Of a stretch of 64,000 nucleotides of DNA, positions 2 to 8,669 are shown in pieces; position 1 is the first letter of the stretch, and the number at the start of each line of letters is the position of its first letter. This stretch comes from a virus. The notes under the pieces are model-generated. The model did not search any database, was not told the origin of the DNA, and saw only the letters and a program-made list of their open reading frames with translations. The stretch lies in IMG/VR virus record IMGVR_UViG_3300047994_000066, positions 18,473 through 82,472 of that record; one strand, written 5' to 3'. The position numbers and the translations under genes were made by a program.

Positions 2-223
2 AACAAGAAACACGGGAACAATCTACCGGTTTGTCGAGTTCAGGAAGGACCAAAGACAACTTACTGTAAAGAAGTCTTGATCAATGGGCCTAGTAAGCTC
101 GTATATCGTCCAGAAAAGCCGCTTCCATGCGGTGCCAAACTTTGGATCGAAACAGAAGCAGACATCACTATAGCTGATGCTGTGCCATATTCTCTCATCA
201 AAGAAGCGATGGAATCCCTATGA
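2..223 (+). CDS. 3' end of an unidentified upstream gene (partial)
   Basis: An open frame enters from the window edge and gives 73 residues before TGA at 221-223. The stop overlaps the next start as ATGA, the usual coupling for this strand. The visible part is mixed alpha/beta-like, with three cysteines and a charged tail ending in Met-Glu-Ser-Leu. No family was recognised, and the N-terminus lies outside the window. Confidence 0.6.
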   Translation, partial: NKKHGNNLPVCRVQEGPKTTYCKEVLINGPSKLVYRPEKPLPCGAKLWIETEADITIADAVPYSLIKEAMESL

Positions 224-1263
224 AAATACACTCGGATGTAAAGCTGGATTATTCTGATGTCATGTTATTACCTAAATGCGGTGGAAAGGATGCACCACAA
301 TCTAGGAGTGAGGTTAATTTATTCAATGATGATGGTTTTGTTCCTATCATTGCCGCAAACATGGATGGTGTTGGGACATTTGAGATGGCTATTCAGTTAT
401 CCAAATACGATACTTTGACTGCACTCCATAAACATTACAGTGTTGATGAGTTGGTGGATTTTTATTGCAACAATCCTACTGTTGCTCCGTATACCATTTA
501 TTCAATGGGAACTAATGATTGGGATAAATTTAGTTTATTTACTGAAGTATTTCGTCAATCTTCTTTTCAGTGGCCATTCGCGGTATGTGTCGATGTGGCC
601 AACGCATATACGAAATCTACTCACGATTTTGTTAGAAAACTTCGAGAGAATTACACCGGCATAATTATTGCTGGTAATGTAGTTACACGAGAAGGGGTTG
701 CAAGCTTAGCCAACGCTGGAGCCGATATTATTAAGGTAGGTATCGGACCAGGATCTGTTTGTACAACTCGTAGGTTAACTGGCATTGGTTATCCTCAATT
801 TAGCGCAGTGATTGAATGTGCTGATCAAGCACATAATTATCAAGCTGACATTAAAATTATTGCCGATGGTGGTATTACTTGTCCTGGTGATGTAGCCAAA
901 GCATTAGCCGCAGGAGCCGATTACGTGATGCTTGGTGGGGTATTTGCCGGTCACGACGAGGGTGGTGGAGAAGTTGCTGGTACATCTATGAAACTTGGTG
1001 GTCCGGAGTTTCGTAGGTTTTACGGAATGGCTTCGAAGCCAGCGCAAGACAAACATAATGGCGGCGTAGCAGAATATCGAGCCAGCGAAGGTAAAGAGGT
1101 ATTGATTCCTTATAAAGGACCAGTATCGAATACTATTAAAGAATATCTAGGTGGTCTCCGTAGCACTTGTGCGTATATGGGTGTTAAAGATCTTTCAAAA
1201 ATATCAATCAATCCGGAATTCATAAAAGTTAATCGTCAATTGAATCAAGTATTCGGAGCATAA
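220..1263 (+). CDS. guaC: GMP reductase (IMPDH/GMPR family)
   Basis: The protein should catalyse NADPH-dependent deamination of GMP to IMP in the purine salvage pathway. At 347 residues it is a (beta/alpha)8 barrel of normal GuaC length without the CBS insert of IMP dehydrogenase. The catalytic loop reads [11 protein letters not shown] with nucleophile Cys181 and Thr183. The phosphate-binding IADGGI stretch and the GGVFAGHDE segment follow. The flap reads ASEGKEV, the GMP-reductase pattern rather than the Arg-Tyr pair of IMP dehydrogenase. It starts inside the stop of the upstream gene (ATGA). A phage copy probably shifts the guanine/adenine nucleotide balance during replication; that role is inference. 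Confidence 0.88.
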
Positions 1264-2030: not shown

Positions 2031-2614
2031 TGAACCTAAGTCCATTCGCTATATTTAAAATTTATCATTCTGTCTTTTTGCACTTTTCTACCGAATATGA
2101 TTACCAAAAGTACATGGGGAAAACTGCTTATACGGAAGAAGCTTTCAACAGTCGTCAAGACAAATACTCTTGGGTAAAGTTGAGTCGAGAATTTGCCACT
2201 AAGGACGCCGACTTTTTTGAGTACTATTTTTCTTGGTTGTTTTATACCAAAGATAAATGGGTAACCACTAAGAGCATTTTTGAAGATCAGGCTCGATTCC
2301 AATTAGAATGGTTGAATTATAGTAAAAAACATTTGGATAATTTTGGCATGGATATGATTAAGATTACTGGGTACGACGCCAAAGTTATTTTTCAAAAACT
2401 TCAATACGGTGATATTCACTATCAAACAATATTGATATTAAACAAATTTACCAATATAATTGATCACATGAATAAAGAATTAGCTGGGATGCCGGTGTGG
2501 GATCTGAAATATAAGAAACTGAAAAAGTTTCAACCGTTCTATGAAGCCCAACAGCCAATGAATGAAATGATGTATCGTAAACTTATCACGGAGAAACAAT
2601 GTCCAGCTTATTAA
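2030..2614 (+). CDS. 59: DNA helicase loader, T4 gp59-like
   Basis: gp59 loads the replicative helicase gp41 onto gp32-coated single strands at forks and recombination intermediates. The 194 residues are close to T4 gp59 (217). Alignment by eye to T4 gp59 is good over the N-terminal domain: a YDYQKY / YDVIKY match, then a QDKYSWVKLSREF segment matching RRDKYFFQKLSEKY. The C-terminal half keeps ILILNKFTNIIDH, equivalent to ILLDSFLNIIDK. It overlaps the AAA+ gene by 16 bases, and the gp32 gene is just downstream, its expected partner. Confidence 0.82.
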   Translation: MNLSPFAIFKIYHSVFLHFSTEYDYQKYMGKTAYTEEAFNSRQDKYSWVKLSREFATKDADFFEYYFSWLFYTKDKWVTTKSIFEDQARFQLEWLNYSKKHLDNFGMDMIKITGYDAKVIFQKLQYGDIHYQTILILNKFTNIIDHMNKELAGMPVWDLKYKKLKKFQPFYEAQQPMNEMMYRKLITEKQCPAY

Positions 2615-3573
2615 ACAATGCCGGTATTCCTAGGACTGATGAAGATACACCACAAACAAAAGCTGATCGTAAATTCAGTGAGTTCTATAGTGGTAGTCAG
2701 ATGTGGGCTGTTAGTGGTGGAGATTCTTATATTCCATGTGCCACTACTGAAAAGAGACTTCCTCCTGGACAATACATTGTTGGATACAGCGATAACAAGG
2801 GAATATTTTTTATCCGTAAGGAAATCAACTTAGATAAGTTGTTGGTCCTTCCGGACTCCAAGGCAGAAAAAGTGTTGGCATCAATTGCACATTTTTGGTC
2901 CTGTGAGCCAAAGTTTAGGGAGCACGGCTTCCTGTGGAAAAGAGGAATCATGCTTTATGGTCCTCCGGGTTCTGGAAAGACGGTTCTATGTCAGCAACTC
3001 AGCAAGCAGATTGTTGATAGTGGCGGCATCTCAGTCTATTTGTCCGACCCAAGAATAACCGCAGAGGGTTTGCGAGTGCTCCGTCTTATTGAACCAATCA
3101 GACCAATTGTGGTCATGATTGAAGATATTGATTCAATCGTTGATAAAGGTGGCGAACAGCATTTGCTTCATTTGTTGGACGGCGAACTTCAAATTGATAA
3201 TGTGGTCTTTGTAGCTACCACGAATTATCCTGAAAAGATGGATAAGCGTTTGGTTAATCGCCCAAGCCGATTTGATGAAATTATTAAGATCGGTATGCCA
3301 AGTGAAGCTGCACGTAAGCAGTACATCTCAGCTAAGGTTCCTCGTTTGGCTGAACCTAATGCAGAGAAAGAATTGAATAAGTGGGCATTAGAAACAAAAG
3401 GTTTGTCTATCGCTCACATTCGAGAAGTAATTATTGCTGTAGAATGTTTGGGTAACGATCTTGATGATACGATTGCTCGCATTATTAAGATGAATAGCAT
3501 CAAAGTAACATCTGAAAACGATAAGAAAGCTGGTGGACCAGGTTTCACTAGCAACTTTGGAGACGACGAATAA
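2599..3573 (+). CDS. AAA+ family ATPase
   Basis: This 324-residue AAA+ protein has Walker A GPPGSGKT at residues 121-128, Walker B VVMIEDID near 171-178, sensor-1 ATTN near 206-209 and arginine-finger-like residues in RLVNRPSRFDE near 217-226. These belong to the classical AAA clade (Cdc48/FtsH/BCS1-type), but no protease domain is attached. The N-terminal 110 residues are a substrate or partner domain not recognised. It overlaps the end of the gp59-like gene and precedes gp32, so a role in replication, recombination or protein remodelling is possible. The substrate is unknown. Confidence 0.85.
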   Translation: MSSLLNNAGIPRTDEDTPQTKADRKFSEFYSGSQMWAVSGGDSYIPCATTEKRLPPGQYIVGYSDNKGIFFIRKEINLDKLLVLPDSKAEKVLASIAHFWSCEPKFREHGFLWKRGIMLYGPPGSGKTVLCQQLSKQIVDSGGISVYLSDPRITAEGLRVLRLIEPIRPIVVMIEDIDSIVDKGGEQHLLHLLDGELQIDNVVFVATTNYPEKMDKRLVNRPSRFDEIIKIGMPSEAARKQYISAKVPRLAEPNAEKELNKWALETKGLSIAHIREVIIAVECLGNDLDDTIARIIKMNSIKVTSENDKKAGGPGFTSNFGDDE

Positions 3574-3816: not shown

Positions 3817-4767
3817 ATGAACTCATTAGCACAACTCCGTAAGACATCATCTCTTGATAAACTTACAAAAGCACTTCAGCAAACCAACAAGCAAAAGAAC
3901 GATGAACGATTCTGGCAACCACAGGTCGATAAGGCCGGTAATGGTTTTGCAATCATTCGCTTTCTTGAAGCACCATTCGTAGACGGTGAAGATGGCACTC
4001 CATTCGTCCAATTGTTTACTCATGGTTTTGAAGGCCCTGGTGGATGGTACATCGAAAATAGTTTGACTACTCTTGGATTGGCTGACCCTGTCAGCGAATA
4101 CAACAGTAAGTTGTGGAAGACAGGTAACGAAGCAAACAAAAAGATTGCTCAGGCTCAAAAGCGTCGTTTGTCTTACATTTCAAACATTCTTGTAGTTAAG
4201 GACCCAGCTAACCCAGCAAACGAAGGTAAGGTATTCTTGTTCTCATACGGCAAGAAAATTTATGAAAAGATTCGTCGTGCAGGTAAGCCAACAGCAGAAG
4301 AAATTGAAGCAGCAGCACTCGAAGGCATCAAGCTTGTTGGTGTTCCTGTGTTCAGTTTTGATAATGGTCATGATTTCAAATTGAAGGTTCGTAAGGTAGA
4401 AGGTTACAGAAACTACGACACCAGTGAATTTGTTGGTATGGCAACTTCTGAAAGTCCAGCAAAGGGAACTCCTATTGCATCAACTGATGAAGAAATTGAA
4501 AGAATCTGGAAGTCTGAATATTCGCTAAAGGAATTGGTCACACCAGATAAGTTTAAGACCTACGCGGAACTAGAAGCGAAGTTGAATAAAGTTCTTGGAT
4601 TAGATGGCGGCAAGGCAGTTTCTAAGGAAACTGTTAAGAGTAAGCCAGTCGAAGAAACTGTTGATTCTACTCCACCATGGCAGGAACTAGCTTCAACTGC
4701 AACAAAAACATCTTCAGATGATGACAAGATGTTGAACATGTTTAATGATCTTGCAGATGACGAGTAA
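3817..4767 (+). CDS. 32: single-stranded DNA-binding protein, T4 gp32-like
   Basis: It coats single-stranded DNA cooperatively during replication, recombination and repair. The 316 residues match T4 gp32 in length and order. A basic LRKTSS patch near the N-terminus corresponds to the LAST motif for cooperativity. The OB-fold core has NGFAIIRFL and SNILVVKDPANPANEGKVF, nearly identical to the T4 segment. The acidic C-terminal tail (DDDKMLNMFNDLADDE) recruits partners such as gp59. The protein contains no cysteine, so the T4 zinc site (His64, Cys77, Cys87, Cys90) is absent. A terminator closes the operon. Confidence 0.92.
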   Translation: MNSLAQLRKTSSLDKLTKALQQTNKQKNDERFWQPQVDKAGNGFAIIRFLEAPFVDGEDGTPFVQLFTHGFEGPGGWYIENSLTTLGLADPVSEYNSKLWKTGNEANKKIAQAQKRRLSYISNILVVKDPANPANEGKVFLFSYGKKIYEKIRRAGKPTAEEIEAAALEGIKLVGVPVFSFDNGHDFKLKVRKVEGYRNYDTSEFVGMATSESPAKGTPIASTDEEIERIWKSEYSLKELVTPDKFKTYAELEAKLNKVLGLDGGKAVSKETVKSKPVEETVDSTPPWQELASTATKTSSDDDKMLNMFNDLADDE

Positions 4768-4812: not shown

Positions 4813-4836
4813 AAGCCACCGAAAGGTGGCTTTTTT
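4813..4836 (+). terminator. intrinsic terminator after gp32
   Basis: An 8-bp stem AAGCCACC / GGTGGCTT with a GAAA tetraloop is followed by a T run (4831-4836). It is a textbook rho-independent terminator for the + strand. The T run touches the stop codon of the converging - strand gene (TTA at 4835-4837). On the - strand the stem is not followed by T's. Confidence 0.9.
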
Positions 4837-6850
4837 ACATGCGGTAAACAGCACCATAAGTGACTGGATGGTCAAATAGGTTTGCTATTATACCTGACGC
4901 AGATGGCTCAGTATTTCTTACCTGAATCAAAGCACCCCCATCATTGACCGGTTGAGGCGCAGGAGCCGTTATCTGACGGTTATCTTGGTGAACATGCACT
5001 ACAGGAGCGTCTTGTGTTGGAGCCGCTGTAGGCGTGTCTGTAAGCTTCTGAGAAGCAGTGTCAGAGGCTGCTTTTGGTGCCTGTGCTTCAAGTTTGGCCG
5101 GAACGCTTTCAGCAGGATTTGTAACCTTAGCGACATTAGCGTCTAATTTACGCTGAACTTCAGGTGGTAGATCGGCTTTTTTGACCGTATTGCCTTTTGA
5201 ATCTTTATATTGACCGGCACCAATAGCAGTGTAGCCTGTACCTTGAAGTTTGGTGTTCAAAGAATTGATGGCATTCCTGTTACCATATTTGTTCCAAGCA
5301 TTTTCTCTTTTCTGTTCTTCAGCATCTTGATTAGAAAAAAGACTACCTAATGTTTCACCGGTATATCCGGCTTTCTTTAATAGGTAAGAAGCACCTTCAT
5401 AAGCAGCAACACCCACTCCTATTAGTAGAGCAGATTTAGCCAAAGCACCTACTAAGCTAGGTAAAGCAGAAATCAAAGGCTTGAGTAATGGTCCAAGTAA
5501 AGTACCAAAAAGACTCTTAAGTGTTCCGGATATCAAAGAAGAAATGTTATCAAGAAGACCTTTGCTAAAAATTGCTTTCTCAATTTCATCCAACTTCTTC
5601 TGTATTTGTTTGTCGCGCTCAGCTTGAGCCAACTTGTCTTTCAACTCTTGGGCGTTTTTCTTATCTTCTTCTGCTTTATCTTGATCTGATTGACTGTTTT
5701 GAACATTTTTAGGTGCAGGTACAGTTGGTGGTTTAGGTGTCACTGTGACAGCGGCAAACGGACTGGTAGCTTGCACTTCAGGAGTTTTGAATAATGATAG
5801 TTGTTCAGGAGCGTTAGGATCTTTAGGCACTTCAGTTGCTTTTGGTGCTTCTGGTTCTTTAGTTCCCGTTTTTACAGGAGCTACAATAGGTTCTTTTGTT
5901 TCTTTTTTGGCAACTTCTAATGCAGCCGGAACTTCTGCTTGAGGAATTTTAGCAGCAGGATTGTCCTTAAGTTTAAGAACCATGCGAATCTTTTCAGTCG
6001 TACCTTCAATATGATCGACTTTATCCAACAATTCTTGGAATTCAGATTTCTTAAAACCTAGAGCTTTCAAAGCATCAGCCGCATCAGACCTTGATTGCTT
6101 TTTCTCTTCTTCTGTCATTGGTTTTGAAGTCTTTTCAACTTTCGCTGATTCTTCTAATTTTTCAACCTTCGTCTGTAAAGCTTGGATGTCTTCTCGATGT
6201 GGATTGGCTACAGGCTCTACCGTTTCTGGTTTCTTTTCAAGAGCAGCGGCTTTACTAGCTACAGTTTTACTAACTACAGCAGCAAGAGATTTGTTCTGAT
6301 CAGTTTTTTCTGTATCTGTCCAATAGGGTGCATCAGGCTTAATCCTGATACGTGGCTTGCTAGGTTTTTCTTTATCAGAAATATTATCAGCTAATTTTTC
6401 TGCCAACTGATTTATTGAAATTCCAGTCGGAGTGTTAACTTTTTCTTCTGTTTCACCAGGAGCGTTAGGCTTCATCCTGATCTTCATCTTTTTAGATGAT
6501 TCAGGCTTATTCTGCTTTAGCTTAATTTTCATCTTAGGTTTCTGTGTTTCTTCCTCAACAGAAGTCACAGGAACCTGATCTGGTTTAATCTTTATTTTAG
6601 GTTTTGGTTTATTTTGTGTTGTTGGAGGCGCAGGAGGGTTCTTAATACGAACCTTCAGCTTTTTCATGTCCTCTTTTTCTTTTTCAGCAAAAGCTTTACC
6701 AACAGCTTGGCTAACTGTTTTGTTGATATTTTCTACTGTAACCGGACGCTGAGGTTGTTCTGGATCATTGAAAATCACATGAGCAGCAGCGGTCGTTTCT
6801 GACGTTGTTTGGCCAGGTGAGTCTGAGTTATTTTTCTTTTTATCTGCCAT
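4835..6850 (-). CDS. large lysine-rich tail protein, candidate tape measure / hub protein
   Basis: 671 residues, not clearly assigned. The N-terminal 180 residues carry five spaced repeats of alternating basic and aliphatic residues ending in proline (KIKIKPD, KMKIKLK, KMKIRMKPNAP, RIRIKPDAP and an earlier KVRIKNP). Near residues 240-285 a three-helix segment resembles the RuvA C-terminal/UBA-like fold (DALKALGFKKSEFQELL). Around 430-500 a long hydrophobic, glycine-rich stretch could cross a membrane. The C-terminus has a VRNTEPS motif of the kind remembered from tape-measure-like proteins. The gene lies directly downstream of the gp26-like gene and its frameshift extension, where tail chaperones precede tape measures in many tailed phages. 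A tape-measure/gp29-like role is inference. Confidence 0.6.
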   Translation of the reverse strand: MADKKKNNSDSPGQTTSETTAAAHVIFNDPEQPQRPVTVENINKTVSQAVGKAFAEKEKEDMKKLKVRIKNPPAPPTTQNKPKPKIKIKPDQVPVTSVEEETQKPKMKIKLKQNKPESSKKMKIRMKPNAPGETEEKVNTPTGISINQLAEKLADNISDKEKPSKPRIRIKPDAPYWTDTEKTDQNKSLAAVVSKTVASKAAALEKKPETVEPVANPHREDIQALQTKVEKLEESAKVEKTSKPMTEEEKKQSRSDAADALKALGFKKSEFQELLDKVDHIEGTTEKIRMVLKLKDNPAAKIPQAEVPAALEVAKKETKEPIVAPVKTGTKEPEAPKATEVPKDPNAPEQLSLFKTPEVQATSPFAAVTVTPKPPTVPAPKNVQNSQSDQDKAEEDKKNAQELKDKLAQAERDKQIQKKLDEIEKAIFSKGLLDNISSLISGTLKSLFGTLLGPLLKPLISALPSLVGALAKSALLIGVGVAAYEGASYLLKKAGYTGETLGSLFSNQDAEEQKRENAWNKYGNRNAINSLNTKLQGTGYTAIGAGQYKDSKGNTVKKADLPPEVQRKLDANVAKVTNPAESVPAKLEAQAPKAASDTASQKLTDTPTAAPTQDAPVVHVHQDNRQITAPAPQPVNDGGALIQVRNTEPSASGIIANLFDHPVTYGAVYRM

Positions 6851-6852
6851 TT

Positions 6853-7068
6853 TTAACGTCTAGTTCTAGCCCTAGCTCTTTTCTCTTGTTGCCTCAACTT
6901 TTCTTTCTCATTATCTTCTTCAACTTGACGGATTAGCATACCAACGTATACATCCCTTTCCCAAGGCATTCGATCATCAAACATAGTGAAATCAATTTTT
7001 TGATGATACAGCATATTAAAGTTCAGTTTAAACTGAGCCTCTAACGAATCATTACCAAAGCCTACCCG
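6853..7068 (-). CDS. -1 frameshift extension of the gp26-like protein (71 aa)
   Basis: After the slippery site the -1 frame is open for 71 codons from CGG at 7068-7066 to TAA at 6855-6853. The peptide has an MPWERDVYVGML core, then a charged helix and a very basic end. This resembles the T-type extensions of tail assembly chaperones, which often contain a proline-tryptophan-arginine core. An ATG inside it (codon 19) has no ribosome site, so independent translation is less likely than frameshifting. It stops two bases before the ATG of the next gene. Confidence 0.62.
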   Translation of the reverse strand, partial: RVGFGNDSLEAQFKLNFNMLYHQKIDFTMFDDRMPWERDVYVGMLIRQVEEDNEKEKLRQQEKRARARTRR

Positions 7069-7802
7069 AAAAAATCTTGGATACCCTCCAAGGTGAATGA
7101 ATGCTCATATTCACACCTAGCGCACTTTTTTTGTACGGTTAACTGATTCTTTGGGGCGTTAAAACAAAACTCTTTCATTTTTTCATATTTATCGGTATGA
7201 AGCTTCAATACGAATTCTACTAATTCTTCTAGGGTGCAGTCATCAGCATTAAAAACTTCTTCACTGCTAAAGATTTTATCAATACACAACGCGACTAAAG
7301 TAACCTCAGCTTCTTCTTGTTCTAGGTTTATTAATTCTTTTGCAACCTTATAAGAAGGAAACTTCATTGTGACTCCCATATCGTCACTAAACTTGATGTT
7401 TCTTTCTGCATTGTTGTTAATAACAGGAACCTCTAAGTATTTGATTGGAACTTCAAGTAACATTCCACATTCTTTCTTTTGTCCTTCAGTAGTAGTCACT
7501 TCATTCTTACATTTGAAAAACTGACTACCTGTTTCACCGATAGATCTAGCACGTAAATGAAGAAACAAAGTTTCCATATCTACAATGGCCATGTTATCAA
7601 CATCGATTTCAGAGACAAGACAATTTTCAACAACTTGTTTTAAAGCGTTGACAGTAGAATCCAAATCTTTAGCTTCAACAGCCATTCGTAGAATCATTTC
7701 TTCACGAACTGTAAATGGTCTATACTTGATTGGATTAGGATAAGAGAGAAGTTGCACCTCATATTGTGGGTGCTTCATTTCTGGCAGTTTCATAATTATC
7801 AC
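7062..7802 (-). CDS. 26: baseplate hub subunit / tail assembly chaperone, T4 gp26-like
   Basis: 246 residues with the T4 gp26-family N-terminus: a short MKLPEMKHPQYEV start, then KYRPFTVREEMILRMAVEAKD, the usual 'RPF-x-KEE-x-I-L' pattern. Two cysteine pairs (near residues 99-113 and 226-229) suggest a small zinc site, as in gp26 relatives of environmental phages. The sequence ends two codons after a slippery T_TTT_TTC, so a longer fused product is probable. The start chosen has an AATAGGTGATAATT leader. A CTAAATAG promoter lies 26 bases upstream. It is followed by the candidate tape measure. Confidence 0.78.
   Translation of the reverse strand: MIIMKLPEMKHPQYEVQLLSYPNPIKYRPFTVREEMILRMAVEAKDLDSTVNALKQVVENCLVSEIDVDNMAIVDMETLFLHLRARSIGETGSQFFKCKNEVTTTEGQKKECGMLLEVPIKYLEVPVINNNAERNIKFSDDMGVTMKFPSYKVAKELINLEQEEAEVTLVALCIDKIFSSEEVFNADDCTLEELVEFVLKLHTDKYEKMKEFCFNAPKNQLTVQKKCARCEYEHSFTLEGIQDFFG
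7068..7074 (-). promoter_or_regulatory. slippery heptamer T_TTT_TTC for -1 frameshifting
   Basis: Read in the gp26-like frame the bases are GA T TTT TTC GGG TAG, an N_NNW_WWH-type slippery sequence two codons before the stop. Slipping back one base joins the gp26-like frame to the 71-codon extension. A 14-base palindrome (7023-7036) lies about 32 bases downstream and could form a small stem, farther than usual stimulators. Confidence 0.6.
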
Positions 7803-7805
7803 CTA

Positions 7806-8669
7806 TTAAATTAATTTTTTGATTGCGCTATTTAGAGCGGCATTTCCTTTTCTAAGATCTTGAGAAACGATAGGAGAATTAGCAATCGTATTGATAATTC
7901 CGCTAGTTAATGAAGGTAGGACTTGTGGATTAGATCCAGCAAATGTCGTAACTGTTTGATAGTCAGTATCAACAGTAACCCACTTACGGAAAGCAAACGT
8001 CACATTTAAGCGATGGATAGCATCGTTATCCCATGATTGGTTTAAAACAGACACGGAAGTCGGCACAGCATCAACAAGCTGTGCTTGATAAATTTGAGTT
8101 CCAGTCATGTCATATTGGTTACAATAGATATCACACTCGTAATTACGGTTGTTATTAGCATCTAATGGGTAATTTACTAAACCTGTTTGTGCAGGAACCA
8201 TCAAATCTAACCAAGCATCAAACATACTTTTTTCCCAGAAATCACCAGTACAAATGAATGTAAAATTAGCTGAACCGTATTGATTTTGGTGAGGAACCCT
8301 TCTTACAAATGCGTGAATCGTATATTCTTGCATTTGAATATCACGACCAGGAAGTTCTGATATTTCACATTGAAGATTTAATCCTCTACCAATGGCAGCT
8401 GGAGATAGACCGGCGTAATTGGCTACACTTGCTGGTGGTATAATCAAAACATCAAACTTGTCGGTTCTAGCAGTTTCATTGTGTTGGTTTAGATTTTGAA
8501 TGAAATTATTGATGCTAAAATTAGGATTCGTCGGTGGATTAGTCACACCGCTTAAAAATGGATAAGTCAAAGATATACCAGGCAAGCCAGGTATTTTAAG
8601 ACTAGCTGATCCAGTCAAACCTTGGTTGGTTAAATTAACATTAAGACCGAATAAATTTTTTGATGACAT
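7806..8669 (-). CDS. tail-tube family baseplate protein, gp54/gp19-like
   Basis: 287 residues. The central part has the tail-tube fold signature shared by T4 gp19 and gp54: CEISELPGRDI, then a TFICTGDFWEKSMFDAWLD stretch, later YDMTG-type turns and the closing WDNDAIHRLNVTFAFRKW. In T4, gp54 starts tube polymerisation on the hub and gp19 forms the tube. The length and the placement among hub genes favour gp54 rather than the main tube protein (163 residues in T4). A glycine/proline-rich N-terminal arm precedes the domain. Confidence 0.72.
   Translation of the reverse strand: MSSKNLFGLNVNLTNQGLTGSASLKIPGLPGISLTYPFLSGVTNPPTNPNFSINNFIQNLNQHNETARTDKFDVLIIPPASVANYAGLSPAAIGRGLNLQCEISELPGRDIQMQEYTIHAFVRRVPHQNQYGSANFTFICTGDFWEKSMFDAWLDLMVPAQTGLVNYPLDANNNRNYECDIYCNQYDMTGTQIYQAQLVDAVPTSVSVLNQSWDNDAIHRLNVTFAFRKWVTVDTDYQTVTTFAGSNPQVLPSLTSGIINTIANSPIVSQDLRKGNAALNSAIKKLI
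7828..7835 (-). promoter_or_regulatory. late-promoter motif CTAAATAG
   Basis: CTAAATAG on the - strand lies inside the 3' end of the preceding tube-protein gene and 25 bases before the gp26-like start. It matches the motif and spacing seen before many + strand virion genes. Confidence 0.55.

Follow-up and report, generated by a model that had tools for sequence, protein, structure and literature searches.

Phage lambda produces its tail assembly chaperones gpG and gpGT from a short ORF that carries the slippery heptamer G_GGA_AAG near its end and is followed by a -1 extension, with a large gene next to it. For T4-like phages, the tail assembly chaperones have reportedly been identified by Vladimirov, Gautam and Davidson in 2022 (Virology 566:9-15) and are said to be encoded by genes 26 and 51, which agrees with the results presented here. 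According to the PRFect paper (PMC10885494), in its passage citing that study, some T4-like phages possess a short and a long gene and do not use a frameshift. In a passage citing the same study, the Adele paper (PMC12846349) mentions poly-T -1 signals in the TAC-N genes of T4-like phages. The wording of these two citing papers suggests that Vladimirov 2022 covers both arrangements, frameshift and two genes. Because both papers cite it for this subject, the kind of system is already known, and the statement of the first-pass annotation that a link between gp26-family proteins and frameshifted chaperones is undescribed for T4-like phages had to be given up. In T4, gp26 and gp51 are listed as hub assembly chaperones; gp51 is missing from the final particle and its function is given as unknown (PMC3004832). 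For lambda, a ratio of short to long product of about 30:1 is stated in review text (PMC5009743).

We analyzed a stretch of DNA of 64,000 nucleotides from an environmental T4-like phage, referred to as the window. It contains a locus that resembles lambda gpG/gpGT by its short ORF, a slippery heptamer near the end, a -1 extension and a large gene next to it. The slip sequence is T_TTT_TTC instead of G_GGA_AAG, and the likeness is one of layout. As in the gp26/gp51 chaperones of T4-like phages, the proteins belong to the PF12322 family and comprise a short form and a predicted long form with the gp51 end. A gene of its own encodes the long form in T4-type phages, whereas that of the window needs a -1 frameshift. 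With E. coli dnaX the locus shares a likely Shine-Dalgarno (SD)-like stimulator 5′ of the heptamer at -1 spacing (PMC5009743), but dnaX slips on A_AAA_AAG, and a strong downstream hairpin like that of dnaX was not found in the window. Adele and the Vandenendeviridae also have the -1 frame, a poly-T signal at the TAC-N end and a downstream ORF that is annotated as a hypothetical protein or is intergenic (PMC12846349); they differ in being other phage families with a GTTTTT motif. We conclude, with a probability of roughly 0.9, that the locus encodes a T4-like tail assembly chaperone pair from one gene by means of a -1 frameshift.

Gene 26 and the slippery site

The following features were identified at the end of gene 26 (evidence in brackets):

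7062..7793, - strand: gene 26 homologue, short tail assembly chaperone form (TAC-N), 243 aa (PF12322, phrog_150, AlphaFold2 model)
7068..7074, - strand: slippery heptamer T_TTT_TTC (sequence; 90/91 loci)
7062..7064, - strand: 0-frame stop TAG, one codon 3′ of the heptamer (sequence)
6853..7068, - strand: extension in the -1 frame, 71 codons and a stop, C-terminal domain of gp51 (TAC-C) (phrog_634, tblastn, alignment)
6853..7793, - strand: predicted frameshift fusion gp26-gp51, 313 aa (phrog_150 bits, hhalign to T4-type gp51)

Direct reading of the sequence in the frame of ORF 7793-7062 (-) gives CAA GAT TTT TTC GGG TAG as the 3′ end of gene 26. The heptamer T_TTT_TTC lies in P/A-site phase and is separated from TAG by a single codon. 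Past the slip, the -1 frame continues with CGG GTA GGC and ends with CGT TAA, whose stop occupies 6855-6853, and the ATG of the next gene at 6850 lies two bases beyond this stop. The first-pass annotation had described the slippery site two codons before the stop, the 71-codon -1 frame and the two-base gap correctly. ATG 7793 is the likely start of the gene 26 protein; an in-frame GTG at 7802 is located within the probable ribosome site TAGGTGATAATTATG.

A chance occurrence was evaluated using the non-overlapping window ORFs of at least 100 aa (n = 51; 18,858 codons). These ORFs contain a total of 27 N_NNW_WWH heptamers, and only gene 26 has one within its last 10 codons. A -1 frame that stays open for at least 60 codons past the stop exists in 19 of the 51 ORFs, most of these runs probably being overlapping neighbor genes. 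Since so many ORFs reach 60 codons, the length of the -1 run is weak evidence when taken alone, and it was dropped as sole evidence.

Gene 26 was assigned to PF12322 (E 2.1e-46; 158.8 bits at a cut-off of 24.5) and to phrog_150 (E 2e-49), the extension to phrog_634, annotated as 'baseplate hub assembly catalyst', which is gp51 (E 1e-14). By tblastn, the extension was detected in 470 phage records, mainly of cyanophages. The 82-kb record, which may be incomplete, contains a single PF12322 (gp26) match and a single phrog_634 (gp51-C) match; separate full-length genes 26 and 51 in the T4-type arrangement were not found in it. The AlphaFold2 model of the gene 26 product has a pLDDT of 93.4. When the PDB was searched with this model by Foldseek, none of the solved chaperones matched its fold significantly. 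The HK97 chaperone 2ob9_B had the highest probability among the matches shown (0.38), at a non-significant E of 2.6 and with an rmsd of 2.8 over 63 columns. A profile sequence search of the PDB with gene 26 yielded no credible match.

Conservation in related phages

Homologues of gene 26 were first collected from viral contigs and phage records, giving 91 loci. As proposed in the first-pass annotation, the heptamer and the -1 frame were compared among them. In 90 loci an in-frame T_TTT_TT[C/T] lies at most 10 codons from the gene 26 stop and is followed by a -1 extension. The extension domain is the same in these 90 loci and shows the typical motif (M/I)PWER(D/E)(I/V)YV. The sole exception was a T4-type phage (L012). 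At the level of sequence, this conservation of the slip confirms that the observation is real. In nearly all slip-bearing loci, the gene 26 protein is just 25-55% identical to that of the window. They include groups such as Kyanoviridae, Emdodecavirus, Menderavirus and Chrysonvirus, and the slip also occurs in the KVP40-type Vibrio phage ValKK3, in Aeromonas phage CC2 and in Acidovorax phage ACP17. Outside the classic T4 group of E. coli, a slip is predicted in nearly every relative examined.

The loci provided 89 distinct sequences, in which the heptamer is TTTTTTC (60) or TTTTTTT (29). All 89 have TTT as the first Phe codon of the slip, while TTT and TTC are found at a ratio of 732 : 281 elsewhere in the gene. 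FF pairs at other places in gene 26 have the slippery form in 9 of 97 cases. The extension was also compared with that of the closest diverged relative (L003), which is 74% identical in the extension and about 53% identical in gene 26. By codon position of the -1 frame, the differences numbered 14/8/30, a pattern indicating that the extension is selected in this frame; dS was saturated in this comparison, hence no dN/dS ratio is given.

Some relatives show other arrangements, which count against the frameshift reading. In two Ackermannviridae (L095, L099) and in Vibrio phage K476 (L097), a -1 gp51-like extension is kept and the tandem T6 heptamer is absent. Gene 26 ends in a TAATG overlap in L099 and L097, L095 has neither heptamer nor overlap, and another slip or coupling may act in these three phages. 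In Synechococcus phage S-SCSM1 (L102:1793-1992), the slip is intact and the gp51-like extension resides in the +1 frame, possibly owing to an indel or a sequencing error or through some other mechanism.

Comparison of the predicted fusion with gp51 of T4

T4-type phages harbor two full genes, 26 and 51. Their gp26 consists of PF12322 alone; in their gp51, a PF12322 domain covers residues 1-201 and the phrog_634 part comes after it. When profiles were compared by hhalign, T4-type gp51 matched the fusion family of the window with a probability of 99.1 (E 4e-19), and the alignment was gapless at the slip junction. Against phrog_150, the fusion scored 188.5 bits over 287 residues versus 169.5 bits for gene 26 alone. 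At the end of the T4-type gene 26, no slip was detected in any of the 12 loci whose gene end was present in the data. The slip is thus lacking in phages that have a full-length gp51 gene of their own. It is well supported that the slip would yield from a single gene the two products for which T4 uses two genes, namely the short and the long form of the tail assembly chaperone. From the first-pass interpretation, the frameshift and the tail chaperone reading were retained on the grounds of the 90 of 91 loci and of the fusion corresponding to T4 gp51, and the supposed novelty for T4-like phages was not.

The essential 'hub assembly catalyst' gp51 of T4 matches along its length a predicted frameshift product of other T4-like phages, which points to a chaperone role. 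While the sampled loci alone do not show whether the slip or the two-gene state is the ancestor, we see somewhat better than even chances that an SD-stimulated U_UUU_UUY -1 slip is the ancestral control of the short:long chaperone ratio in the T4 superfamily. T4 genes 26 and 51 would then be derived: a duplicated gene would have made the frameshift product permanent, and the slip would have disappeared.

Cyanophage annotators have marked the 71-codon frame as a separate small gene (gp51), which would need its own or a translationally coupled start. The short gp51 CDS with internal starts in GenBank records and the TAATG or TGATG overlaps of some relatives (L094, L097, L099, L011) are in line with such a gene, but we consider it improbable. 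The first in-frame ATG of the window lies about 19 codons beyond the slip, has no ribosome site (CTGAACTTTAATATG) and is missing in relative L003. Moreover, annotated starts differ in place between the records, the conserved feature is the slip and not a start, and T4-type gp51 spans the junction within one ORF. A separate start for the extension was rejected, as the window contains no clear ribosome site and start for the 71-codon frame and the start is not conserved.

In GenBank entries for cyanophages, Pelagibacter phages and related phages, the gp51 part either has a start of its own, at varying places, or is missing. Among the cultured phage records, L005-L008, L100, L102 and L103 contain gp51 as a separate short CDS that starts at varied places, and it is left out entirely in L004, L098, L101 and L104. 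A joined CDS for gp26-gp51 was present in none of the 20 annotated regions inspected.

SD-like element and downstream RNA

One further feature lies upstream of the slip:

7085..7089, - strand: SD-like GGAGG, likely stimulator, 10 nt 5′ of the heptamer (sequence, duplex energy, GAG bias)

GGAGG sits within Leu-Glu-Gly codons, and its anti-SD duplex energy in the window is -9.8 kcal/mol. Across the 89 sequences, anti-SD pairing has a sharp position-specific minimum at this site (mean about -6.0 versus a background of about -0.3 kcal/mol) and is stronger there than under a synonymous-codon null. At the site, 37 of 63 Glu-Gly pairs use GAG, versus 57 of 305 elsewhere (p 5e-10); among representatives less than 50% identical, 13 of 20 do so at the site (p 2e-5), kinship among the loci being only partly controlled in this bias. 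GGAGG is conserved beyond coding need; in some relatives (L004, L011) the element is weak or absent. There is no start codon at initiation distance 3′ of GGAGG in the window, which makes a role in initiation unlikely. SD-like -1 stimulators are active at 9-14 nt (PMC5009743), a range that includes the spacing of 10 nt found here, and GGAGG likely stimulates the -1 slip. The element appears to be an addition to the known system, as our literature search found no description of it for tail chaperones. There was little support for a pseudoknot or hairpin 3′ of the slip as principal stimulator, the folding of the downstream RNA having a mean z of -1.0 over 37 loci and a z of -0.5 in the window.

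Alternatively, the RNA polymerase might slip on the T run, resulting in mRNAs with one extra U. All 89 distinct sequences have a run of 6 to 9 T at the site, which speaks for such transcriptional slippage. In 60 of them, however, the run is just six long, which is short for slippage of a bacterial polymerase; in addition, the run keeps the tandem-codon phase, and the SD-like element stands at ribosomal -1 spacing. We therefore assign transcriptional slippage a low probability. A sequencing error or a recent frameshift mutation that split a formerly fused gene, for which nothing speaks apart from the broken frame, is practically negligible and was rejected, because the same layout is present in contig L002, whose gp26 protein is identical, and in about 90 diverged loci.

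Proposed mechanism

For the -1 ribosomal frameshift, which we prefer, the occurrence and frequency of the slip, the contribution of the SD-like element and the chaperone action are inferred as follows. Most ribosomes would halt at TAG, giving the 243-aa gp26 form (TAC-N), and a minority would move one base back on U_UUU_UUC and produce the 313-aa gp26-gp51 fusion (TAC-NC). This step would be aided by GGAGG, ten bases 5′, pairing with the 16S rRNA. Two chaperone forms would result in an uneven ratio, as with lambda G/GT. If lambda gpG/gpGT is taken as the model, coating of the tape measure would fall to the short form and recruitment of tail tube subunits to the extension. In T4 and closely related phages, the separate genes 26 and 51 supply the same two products.

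Genome context

Two genes flank the locus:

7806..8669, - strand: tail tube-like protein, upstream of gene 26 (phrog_45, E 8.8e-25)
4835..6850, - strand: next gene, product of 671 aa, tape-measure candidate from its position (location and size)

The surroundings are T4-like and comprise genes for the tail tube-like protein, a DNA end protector, head closure, tube cap, and baseplate wedge and hub proteins. The earlier proposal that the next gene is a large candidate tape measure is consistent with its position and size, but neither PHROGs nor Pfam gave a tail or tape-measure match for the 671-aa product, and it did not match T4-type gp29 in a single-sequence hhalign comparison. Lys, Pro and Glu are abundant in its N-terminal part, and residues 254-288 gave a weak RuvA C-terminal-like match (E 1.9e-4) under the Pfam cut-off. 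In phiM12, the large gene that follows at the second position carries a tape-measure-like annotation and has a weak match.

Elsewhere in the window, an ORF at 220-1263 (+) resembles by eye the IMP dehydrogenase/GMP reductase family and is possibly a host-derived metabolic gene. An AAA+ ATPase-like gene at 2599-3573 (+) adjoins the gene for a T4-like single-strand DNA binding protein (3817-4767).
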